Shown in pieces: positions 57,761 through 60,648 of a DNA stretch of 64,000 nucleotides. Origin of the DNA: Acidiphilium multivorum AIU301. GTDB lineage: Bacteria; Pseudomonadota; Alphaproteobacteria; Acetobacterales; Acetobacteraceae. Under the pieces are notes generated by a model that saw only the letters and a program-made list of their open reading frames with translations, searched no databases and was not told the DNA's origin. Each line of letters begins with the position of its first letter. Positions within the stretch are counted from its first letter, which is position 1. The position numbers were made by a program, and so were the translations under genes. The stretch is from contig NC_015186.1 in the NCBI RefSeq assembly GCF_000202835.1, forward strand, positions 2,605,001-2,669,000, written 5' to 3'.

Positions 57761-58171
57761 TCAGGCCAGGTAACGCGCCCGCAGATGCGCCTCGAACGAA
57801 GCGGGGTCGAGCGGCTTGCCGGTCGCCTCGACCAACAGTTCGTTGAACCCATAGCGCGCGCCGTGGCCGTGGACATTGGCGCGCAGCCAGTCCCGCAGCG
57901 GGGCAAAATCGCCCTCCGCCAGGGCGGCGTCGATGTCCGGCCGCGCCCGCCGCGCCGCCTGCATCAGCTGCGCCGCGGCCATCGCGCCAAGCGTGTAGGA
58001 CGGAAAATAGCCGAACAGCCCCGCGTACCAGTGAATGTCCTGCAGGCAGCCCCTGGCGTCGTCCGGCGGCACGATGCCGAGCAGCGCGCGCATCCCGTCG
58101 TTCCAGGCCGCCGGCAGGTCGGCAACCGCGAGGTCGCCGGCCACCATCGCCGCCTCCAGGCGGAAGCGGAG
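57761..58171 (-). pseudogene. 3' fragment of an M32 carboxypeptidase gene, cut by the IS
   Basis: This fragment encodes LRFRLEAAMVAGDLAVADLP through HWYAGLFGYFPSYTLGAMAAAQL and GFNELLVEATGKPLDPASFEAHLRARYLA, the C-terminal third of carboxypeptidase Taq (M32). It lies downstream of the insertion and has no own start. Together with the 5' fragment, and after removing 1373 bp, it restores 505 codons in frame (504 residues), the family's normal length. The substrate-binding C-terminal part is therefore lost from the 5' product. Confidence 0.9.
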
Positions 58172-58173
58172 AA

Positions 58174-58434
58174 CGTATGGCCCGCCCCGTCCGCAAGGGG
58201 TGATTTTCATCTGGCTCTAATCAGTCTGCTTCAACGTATCCGGTCTCGGGCTTCGAACCCGGCCAAGATGGAGATCCGCGCGGCCTGATCCTCATAATCA
58301 CACCGGCCTCGGAGGCCGTTCACTGCGTCAGGTTTTCAAGCCGCCGTTCGACTGTCAGGCCATCTTCCTTTCACCTCACGCAGACATCGACTGCCCTTTC
58401 GCGCCCAACTGTGAGCGCTGTTCGGGCGATTCCG
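58174..58434 (-). ncRNA. candidate bridge RNA (seekRNA) of the IS element
   Basis: This noncoding stretch lies downstream of the transposase, where IS1111-group elements encode their guide RNA. Read in the transposase direction it contains TGTGATTATG (58293-58302), identical to the target/IS junction TGTGA-TT-ATG, and then ATACGTT (58233-58239), identical to the IS donor end plus core TT (58172-58178). Target guide first and donor guide second is the known order. Hairpins such as GGCCTC/GAGGCC and CGGG-TTCGAA-CCCG frame these segments. A right-target guide is at best GCGGA, and no clear right-donor guide was found. Expression is not shown by sequence. Confidence 0.55.
58177..58188. repeat. 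IS subterminal inverted repeat (transposase 3' side)
   Basis: ATGGCCCGCCCC lies 3 nt inside the AA core at this end and is the exact reverse complement of the repeat at the other end (59528-59539). Confidence 0.88.
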
Positions 58435-59475
58435 TCATGCGGCCGCAGCCGCCGCTTCGAATTGGGCGTCGTAATCGCAACCGTGCGCCAAAACGGCCCA
58501 TGCAATCCGAGCCAGCTTCGCGGCCAGCGCGACTACGACCACGTTCTTATGCGCTCGATCGAGCAATCCCCGCGCCCAGCGGCCCAACGGCGTATCGCGT
58601 TCGACAAGATAAGGCAGCGCCGCTCGTGCGCCATGGATCAAGTTCTTCCGCAAATAACGATTGCCGCGTTTGCTGATGCCGAGCAGGCGCGGTTTTCCAC
58701 CCGTTGTCATTTGCCGTGGAACGAGCCCCAGCCACGCCGCCATGTCCCGCCCACGTTTGAATGCATGCGCCTCGCCGACCGCCGCCGCCAGCGCCGTAGC
58801 GTTTATCGTTCCAATTCCTGGGATTTTGGTCAAACGTCGCACAGCCACGTCGTCACGAGCCAACTGAACGAACTCGGCGTCGAAGCCGGTGATCCTCTGG
58901 TCGAGTGAACGCCATTCCGCCCGAAGATCTTCGATCAACGTCCGGATGCGCGGGCTCAACGCGGCAAAACCGCCATCTTCGGCCAATGTCTCAAGCTCGG
59001 CTTCCAGTTTCCTCCGGCCTTGCGGAACGACGATCCCTCGCTCCAGCAGCAACGCCCGCAAGTGATTGATCAGCGCCGTCCGTTCCGAGACGAGGCGCTC
59101 CCGGGCTCGGTGCAAAGCCTGGAGATCAGATTGGTCCTGGCTCTTCACAGGCACGAAACGCATCGTTGGCCGCGTCGCAGCCTCTGCGATCGCCTCCGCG
59201 TCGAGATCATCGTTCTTCTGCGCCTTCACGTACGGACGGACATATTCCGGCGACATCAGCCGCACCTCGTGGCCCCGCGCGGCGAAAATCCGCCCGAGGT
59301 GATGAGCGCCGCAACATGCTTCCATTGCCACAATGCACGACCCAAGCTCGCCAACGAAACTTTCCAACGTTCCCCGCCGAAGTCTCCGCCTCAAAACAAC
59401 CCGGCCGGCGGCGTCCATGCCCACCACGCTGCAAGAGTTCTTCCCAAGATCGATGCCGAGAATCATGATATCCAT
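58435..59475 (-). CDS. IS110 family transposase (DEDD-RuvC plus serine-type Tnp domain)
   Basis: A 346-residue recombinase. The RuvC-like N-terminal domain has acidic residues D9 (LGIDLGK), E52 (VAMEACCG), and D89 and D92 (KNDDLDAEAI). A coiled middle part (about 115-200) follows. The C-terminal Tnp domain has the HhH-like LTKIPGIGTINATALAA, and the catalytic Ser is in GKPRLLGISKRGNRYLR (S268). All expected residues are present, so it looks active. GAGGAG lies 7-10 nt before the ATG; another ATG is three codons in. Confidence 0.95.
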   Translation of the reverse strand: MDIMILGIDLGKNSCSVVGMDAAGRVVLRRRLRRGTLESFVGELGSCIVAMEACCGAHHLGRIFAARGHEVRLMSPEYVRPYVKAQKNDDLDAEAIAEAATRPTMRFVPVKSQDQSDLQALHRARERLVSERTALINHLRALLLERGIVVPQGRRKLEAELETLAEDGGFAALSPRIRTLIEDLRAEWRSLDQRITGFDAEFVQLARDDVAVRRLTKIPGIGTINATALAAAVGEAHAFKRGRDMAAWLGLVPRQMTTGGKPRLLGISKRGNRYLRKNLIHGARAALPYLVERDTPLGRWARGLLDRAHKNVVVVALAAKLARIAWAVLAHGCDYDAQFEAAAAAA

Positions 59476-59527
59476 CGGTCTGCTCCTCTCTCCAAACCAG
59501 CGGCGATCCTACCAGATCGCCACGAGA

Positions 59528-59539
59528 GGGGCGGGCCAT
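59528..59539. repeat. IS subterminal inverted repeat (transposase 5' side)
   Basis: GGGGCGGGCCAT is the exact inverted copy of the repeat at 58177-58188. It is 5 nt inside the AA core, so the two tips differ in length (3 and 5 nt), an asymmetry known for subterminal repeats of IS1111-type elements. Confidence 0.88.
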
Positions 59540-59544
59540 CCCAT

Positions 59545-60648
59545 AATCACATGCGCCGGGTAGGTCACCTCGTCCGCCTCGACGCGGATGAAACTCCGCT
59601 CGACCCGCCGCAGCCGCGCCGCCAGCCGGTCCGGCGCGAAATCCGCCGGCGCCTGGCCGAAGGCGGCGGCGAGTTGCGGGCCGAGCCAGCGCAGGAACGG
59701 ATCGGATCGCGCCGCCTGCAATTCCACAATCAGCGACTGGCTTTCATGCACCGCCATGCCGGCGGCCGCGCCGACGGGCTGGCGCGCGCGCGCGCGCGGC
59801 AATCCGGCCTCGTACAGCCCGTGCCCGGCCTCGTGCAGCACGCCCATCAGGGCGGAGGCGAAATCCGCCTCGTCATACCGCGTGGTGATCCGGATGTCGG
59901 TCGGCGTGCCGCCGCAGAACGGGTGCAGCGAGCGGTCCAGCCGCGCGCCCCGGAAATCGAGCCCGACGCGCTCGGCGAGGCGGCGGCACAGCGCCTCCTG
60001 CGCCGCCTCGGCGAAGGGTGGCGTGCCCGGCAGGCCAGCCATCCGCCCCGCCTGCCGCGCCTCGACGGTGGCGAGATGGTCCCGCAGGAACGCCTCGTAG
60101 CGGTCGAACACCGGCTCGATTTCGGCCGCGGTGATTCCCGGCTGGTAGGAATCGATCAGCGCATCGTAGGGCGAGAGGCCGAGCGTCGCGCCCAGTGCCG
60201 CCGCCTGTTCGCGGATCAGCCCGAGCAGCACCTCCAGCCTCGGGCGGACGGCGGCGAAATCGGCATCCCGCCGCGCGCCGCGCCACACCGTCTCGCAGGC
60301 CGCGCTCTCGCGGGCCACGGCCTCGACCAGATCGGCCGGCACCGCCGTCGCCCGCCGATACGCCCGCCGCATCAGCGCGAGATTGCGCCGCTCGACCCGA
60401 TCGGCGGGCGGCGCGATTTCGGCGGCGGCGAGATCCTCCTCGACCTCCGGCGCCGCCAGCATCCCGTGGGCGACGCCGGCGAGTGTTGCCAGCTGGTCGC
60501 CCCGCGCCGCGGCGCCGCCTTCCGGCATCACCGCCGCCTGGTCCCAGCCCAGCATCGCGCTGGCCTCGTCAATGATCGCCAGCCGCTCGAACCGCGACGT
60601 CAGGCGCTGATACGGGGTCACCGCCCCTTCGATGCTCAGGTCGTTCAC
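59545..60648 (-). pseudogene. 5' fragment of an M32 carboxypeptidase (Taq) gene, cut by the IS
   Basis: This fragment encodes about 368 residues of a zinc carboxypeptidase, from the start up to DEVTYPAHVI. The zinc motif HEAGH (in LHEAGHGLYEAGLPRARAR) and the downstream VHESQS Glu are present; the C-terminal third is missing. Translation would run about 11 codons into the IS before stopping. The GTG start overlaps the surf1 stop (GTGA), so it was the last gene of the cox operon. The truncated protein probably does not fold properly. Confidence 0.92.

Follow-up and report, generated by a model that had tools for sequence, protein, structure and literature searches.

The window analysed here, a 64,000-nt stretch of the Acidiphilium multivorum AIU301 genome, contains an IS1111-type element whose recombinase is almost certainly guided by an RNA from the minus strand of the element's 3' noncoding end, an RNA with two target guides and the donor segment ATACGTT. 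Both target guides, placed in one internal loop, would jointly choose sites like TGTGA-TT-CACTGC, with GCAGTGAA pairing with the top strand to the right of the core and TGTGATT with the bottom strand to its left, and wild-type guides would be expected to direct insertion at TGTGATTCACTGC. A multiloop region would hold at least ATACGTT, which, being identical to the right end of its own element together with the core, is proposed to recognise the RE-LE junction of the excised circle. By analogy with published relatives, the recombinase would bind this RNA, whose transcription would probably begin at the circle junction, and use it to guide strand exchange. RNA guidance in the IS1111 family was published in 2024, as set out in the abstract and passages of Siddiquee et al. 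(PMC11187229), and the window element belongs to this bridge RNA/seekRNA kind. The element and its surroundings comprise the following features:

58174 to 59546, minus strand: IS1111-type insertion sequence of 1373 bp, with left end TTATGGG, right end CATACG and core TT.
58435 to 59475, minus strand: DEDD transposase/recombinase of 346 aa (Pfam PF01548 and PF02371; NCBIfam NF033542).
59528 to 59539, minus strand: left subterminal inverted repeat ATGGCCCGCCCC, from the sequence.
58177 to 58188, minus strand: right subterminal inverted repeat GGGGCGGGCCAT, from the sequence.
59545 to 59551, minus strand: left target TGTGA plus core TT, from junction comparison.
58166 to 58173, minus strand: core TT plus right target CTCCGC (read TTCTCCGC), from junction comparison.
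57761 to 60648, minus strand: host gene, an M32 carboxypeptidase split by the insertion, whose N-terminal part matches PF02074.

The product of the ORF at 58435-59475 matches Pfam DEDD_Tnp_IS110 (PF01548) and Transposase_20 (PF02371) and scores 327.3 bits with the NCBIfam model NF033542, 'IS110 family RNA-guided transposase', for a cut-off of 140. The GL-P----S(t)G motif of the IS1111 group is present as GLVPRQMTTG, together with the other traits of this group, namely a DEDD RuvC plus Transposase_20 architecture, subterminal repeats and a longer 3' noncoding region, with 261 nt downstream of the transposase gene versus 71 nt upstream. The subterminal inverted repeat ATGGCCCGCCCC is perfect over 12 bp (passages of PMC11208160 give 7-17 bp for the IS1111 group) and is flanked by extensions of seven (TTATGGG) and three (ACG) bases. 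As these extensions lie outside the perfect repeat, the element, following IS1111 convention, extends from 58174 to 59546, with core TT. The span 58172-59551 given in the first-pass annotation contains the whole element and also takes in TGTGA (59547-59551), which is left target, and the right-hand 2-nt core. A candidate circle-junction promoter, TTGCGG-18-TATGGG, has just six of 12 consensus bases and is tied with other candidates, and we make no claim for it.

The genome carries 12 full-length copies of the element and several fragments. All 12 have the right end ATACG-TT and, as had been expected of other copies, their left junctions read TGTGATT in 11 cases and TGTAATT in one (L019). They occupy six different contexts, the host context having been assigned for all copies except L018. 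The window copy sits in the M32 carboxypeptidase gene, six copies sit closely upstream of the start of an IS1634-type transposase, IS5-type transposase frames adjoin two copies at one context and one copy at another, and one copy lies at the edge of an MgtC-like frame (a match below the NCBIfam cut-off). The six IS1634 copies were counted as one site because they may partly descend from a single, carried-along insertion. A single place in the genome has an exact, uninterrupted match to the pattern TGTGATTCNCTGC, five further matches having one mismatch, and this sole exact occurrence lies in an intact IS1634-type copy carrying TGTGATTCCCTGC, the exact empty site, TGTGATT included. Compared with it, six other IS1634-type copies are split at the same point with a two-base overlap equal to the TT core, and the insertion adds no bases, since the core TT alone stands at both junctions. 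Seen from the 5' end of the IS1634-type element (L138, C6:69399-69949), six of seven close copies have the IS1111 insertion immediately before the start of the transposase. There is no insertion in an eighth copy, a divergent one on C2, which shows the full TGTGATT left half and three of six bases on the right, a fit no worse than that of some occupied sites, and as a single case it proves nothing. For the M32 site, 12 other genomes of the genus were matched and 11 gave the locus, uninterrupted in 11 of 11, with right-hand similarity dropping to 26-28 of 51 in two of these congener loci, the most distant ones. Because these 11 loci read through the insertion site, the window copy probably inactivates the M32 carboxypeptidase gene. 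The empty IS1634 site and the congener loci together fix the junctions and place TGTGATT outside the IS. The notion that TGTGATT is a fixed left end, of which the internal TGTGATT would merely be a repeat, draws on its constancy at 11 of the 12 own-genome copies and has next to no probability, being refuted by the empty site, which itself carries TGTGATT, and by 72 relatives that share near-identical left ends and the inverted repeat, mostly have other preceding bases and show an internal segment changed accordingly.

A near-identical copy (99.6%) is found on the A. cryptum plasmid pACRY01. The clade is represented in the same A. multivorum genome by a second IS1111 element (L139 4087-5169, at C6:2281827-2282979, and also L021), which has about 69% DNA identity to the first and is separated from one of the first element's copies by about 400 bp. 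Its guide, GTGAATTTT, is different, and its left flank, ACGAATTTT, is similar.

The reading of the internal TGTGATT as a target guide was examined with relatives, for which 80 loci were fetched by protein. Eight of them were left out as they had no clean end pair (L059, L073, L074, L075, L086, L097, L121 and L122), and the other 72, together with the window element, made 73 elements at 68 distinct sites, five elements having been removed as duplicate sites for the scan and the permutation test. The left ends of the 73 elements are near-identical, with six 7-base variants and 68 of 73 reading TTATGGG, TTATGGA or TTTATGG, a uniformity that is partly a selection effect because the selection of ends in the relatives required an inverted repeat and gave extra score to ACGTT. 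The two candidate target guides are:

58296 to 58302, minus strand: left target guide TGTGATT, from sense covariation with the left flank and the scan peak.
58319 to 58326, minus strand: right target guide GCAGTGAA, which pairs with top-strand TTCACTGC, from antisense covariation with the right flank.

Both matches on which the first-pass annotation had built its case are there: read as reverse complements, 58293-58302 gives TGTGATTATG and 58233-58239 gives ATACGTT. TGTGATT and ATACGTT are each present a single time within the 261-nt noncoding region, and each of them turns up in about 0.5% of its single-base shuffles. That annotation had read TGTGATT as target guide and ATACGTT as donor guide, which agrees with our results, and had missed the right target guide GCAGTGAA, 5' of the left one. 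When the whole noncoding region was scanned, the top sense agreement with left flanks fell exactly on TGTGA (excess 2.55 of 5 bases, z 12.4) and the top antisense agreement with right flanks on CGCAGT (z 10.1) and GCAGTG (z 6.0), 24-25 nt upstream of TGTGA. Over the 68 sites, left guides agree with left flanks at 285 of 340 non-core bases, against a shuffle mean of 112.9 and a maximum of 154. Right guides agree with right flanks at 270 of 408 (shuffle mean 144.5, maximum 187), and a second register of the right guide, the one fitted by the window's own guide, yields 221 of 408 (shuffle maximum 177); none of these three totals was attained in 20,000 shuffles. The two right-guide registers are the best two of a scan on the same data, with a per-element listing of the better of the two kept out of the counts, and the margin over the shuffles far exceeds, in our judgement, what register choice could yield. 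Element by element (n = 68), left guides match at 5/5 bases in 30 cases, 4/5 in 25, 3/5 in nine and 2/5 in four; right guides in the first register match at 6/6 in 16, 5/6 in 19, 4/6 in seven and 3/6 in ten, the poor fits being 2/6 in nine, 1/6 in three and 0/6 in four. Exact 8-base right-guide matches are seen in L095 (guide TGAACGAA, site TTCGTTCA), L096 (guide TGAATGAA, site TTCATTCA), L098 (guide CGGCAAAA, site TTTTGCCG) and L130 (guide CCAGTTAA, site TTAACTGG), and L105, which has the same right guide as L104, lies at a site that fits 6/8. The shuffles themselves ignore relatedness, and the pairs L095/L096 and L098/L113 combine closely similar RNAs with different guides and show the same guide-site effect. 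Related elements with other guides do sit at other, matching targets, as had been anticipated.

For the window element, the right guide GCAGTGAA predicts TTCACTGC, and non-core right bases match at 25 of 42 positions over seven distinct sites, against 11.7 expected if G+C is taken as 67% (P about 1e-5 by simulation). These sites are the six own-genome contexts plus L054, the pACRY01 copy being left out, with its right flank shared with L054. The right guide fits the element's own sites at three to five of six non-core bases (IS1634 being the best with 5/6, the window with 4/6), and by the site match counts this element is strict about the left half of its sites and loose about the right half. 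Site preference alone needs no RNA, and the element is known here from its sequence, so the recombinase could conceivably read the target DNA directly, with the RNA similarity as a by-product, such as copied target sequence. This is highly improbable in view of guides for both strands that vary with their targets over the 68 sites and follow the published order of IS1111 seekRNAs, and of published relatives for which passages of PMC11187229 describe a required noncoding region whose reprogramming shifts the target.

Guidance by RNA also agrees with the structure predicted for the noncoding end, in which we distinguish:

58222 to 58358, minus strand: predicted bridge RNA/seekRNA core, the modelled part, which may extend to 58174 (alignment, consensus fold).
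58305 to 58317, minus strand: apical stem between the target guides, GGCCTC-C-GAGGCC (window fold, pair counts).
58233 to 58239, minus strand: left donor guide ATACGTT, equal to right end plus core (73/73 identity, two co-changes).
58268 to 58274, minus strand: possible right donor guide TCTCCAT, which would pair with left-end ATGGG through one G-U (position, partial complementarity).

In the fold of the window RNA, both target guides face each other across one internal loop, all 15 bases unpaired, with the GGCCTC/GAGGCC stem capping this loop, and five of the seven ATACGTT bases are open in a multiloop. A hand-adjusted structure of 28 pairs, evaluated on 55 aligned RNAs (alignment A1, covering 55 of the 73 elements after near-identical and some other ones were removed by hand), has 94.1% of cells paired, versus 22-38% in controls with partners slid by 1-3 columns, and 16 of the 28 pairs changed on both sides (RNAalifold). 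These changes on both sides are the better evidence because the structure was derived from the same sequences, which favours the cells-paired figure. Two of the six helices are invariant, and the donor hairpin helix is paired in 71.5% of cells. Single-sequence minimum-energy folds of the 73 RNA cores leave both target guides mostly open (at least 5 bases) in 35 and the donor segment mostly open in 29, L061 being among those that fold otherwise. Since these folds agree only in part, the loop placement, which the first-pass annotation had suggested checking for both matches, draws on the window fold and the covarying stems, with single folds bearing it out in those 35 and 29 cases. An Rfam scan of 57900-59800 returned no bridge-RNA family and two weak matches below gathering scores.

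The donor side offers much less variation. In all 73 elements the internal ATAC-N-TT is identical to the right end of the same element, 72 with ACGTT and one (L071) with ACATT, ACGTT having been favoured in end selection. L146, found with the RNA model and outside the 73, also has ACATT both at its right end and inside, and its left end is unreadable. Because L071 is closer to ACGTT elements (83.9% identity to the second IS1111 of the A. multivorum genome) than to L146 (71.6%), the G-to-A donor change probably arose twice. Covariation of the left donor segment with the right end is therefore thinly documented, by these two events. Right ends were also searched in 18 loci with a motif whose variable donor base was restricted to G or A. 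ACGTT stands at the right end and inside in L021/L145, L026, L028, L136, L137 and L151, outside the 73, and the G/A-only motif gave no ends in L147, L148, L149, L150, L152, L154, L155, L025, L027 and L029. By its position, TCTCCAT is a plausible right donor guide against ATGGG; three of its seven bases are unpaired in the window fold. When compared with left-end variants, three ATAGG ends keep the common segment and the different segment of one ATTGG end mismatches (one row of this variant table is probably a motif mis-hit upstream of the RNA).

Target choice could be RNA-guided with ATACGTT only a structural repeat, the ends being read by the protein through the subterminal inverted repeats. 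We consider this unlikely, while granting it an appreciable probability: the donor bases hardly vary, the possible right donor guide does not track left-end variants, the donor segment is mostly open in only the above 29 folds, and the abstract and passages of the seekRNA paper present target matches only (PMC11187229). A purely structural repeat is at odds with two matched G-to-A changes in right end and internal segment, in elements (L071 and L146) that do not look like sisters, and with passages of Durrant et al. that predict donor pairing in a multiloop for many IS1111 orthologues (PMC11208160).

In 37 aligned transposases, D9, E52, D89 and D92 are invariant (37/37), and position 268 holds serine in 25 and threonine in 12. 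The four acidic residues listed as kept in the first-pass annotation therefore stand; it is T258, and not S268, that aligns with the nucleophile of IS621, the serine of its SG motif (PDB sequence alignment). This serine is residue 243 of the IS621 chain by count, which we take to be S241 with a two-residue offset because passages of PMC11208158 name S241 and the conserved G242. The S(t)G motif reads TG in 72 of the 73 elements by pattern, and the 73rd (L101) reads GIVPRQYSTG, giving threonine in 73 of 73. That SG or TG occurs at this motif is already stated in passages of the seekRNA paper (PMC11187229); a literature search on threonine in this role returned no title on the subject. With threonine aligned to Ser241 of IS621 throughout the 73 members of this alphaproteobacterial IS1111 clade, strand exchange through a 5'-phosphothreonine may occur, unless the role has moved to a neighbouring serine or threonine, and, with a left donor guide in step with its own end, donor and target specificity might both be RNA-encoded and naturally reprogrammable in IS1111, a combination that we put forward tentatively, as less likely than not.

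The 3-base right extension is also a feature of the seekRNA elements ISEc11, ISPa11 and ISKpn4. As described for these three in passages of PMC11187229, the window element has a 3' noncoding region, subterminal repeats with a 7-base left extension, a top-strand match 5' of the bottom-strand match and an element-specific target; it differs from them in its target, TGTGA-TT-CACTGC, in its other host lineage and in its recognisable donor segment, and its RNA is a predicted one. According to passages of PMC11208160 and of the structure paper PMC11208158, IS621 of the IS110 group has, like the window element, a DEDD recombinase, a dinucleotide core, a left target guide paired with a right one, and a segment that matches the donor. 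Unlike in IS621, the RNA lies at the right end and not at the left, the order of target guides is reversed, the inverted repeats are long and threonine replaces serine at the nucleophile position. Fixed-site insertion into other mobile elements recalls IS4321/IS5075, IS1111 family members that target Tn21-family termini (passages of PMC11187229), whereas among the hosts of the window element are IS1634-type and IS5-type elements and also an ordinary gene. The element is a clean natural case of a putative RNA-guided recombinase for which the words for target and donor are legible in the sequence. The 68 guide/target pairs from its relatives could aid the choice of compact programmable recombinases, and the case sharpens two points about IS1111, namely whether or not the donor end is read by RNA and whether or not threonine serves as nucleophile.

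A DNA search matched 31 of 120 family genomes at E 0.001, whereas at E 1e-60 only the element's own genome was found among 385 class-level genomes; the RNA model search detected eight of 385 genomes at E 1e-4, its own included. A literature search for Acidiphilium and IS1111 gave a single match, by its title on Paracoccus plasmids. L165, from one of 395 order-level genomes, is identical to L071 over the compared stretch and does not count as a separate case. In viral contigs, a protein search gave 24 pattern matches, of which none was confirmed. L162, a viral contig with a donor-guide variant pattern, lacks IS structure at the match and was taken as chance, and a second donor-guide variant pattern had no match in viral contigs. 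L163 and L164, also viral contigs, have the normal donor segment and were kept out of the counts. The right end of L164 reads ATACG followed by CT, not TT, and its donor segment stays ACGTT; it is perhaps a decayed or core-changed copy. In L072, the noncoding region is about 165 nt longer than in the others (stop codon at about 3529) and strongly palindromic upstream of the bridge RNA.
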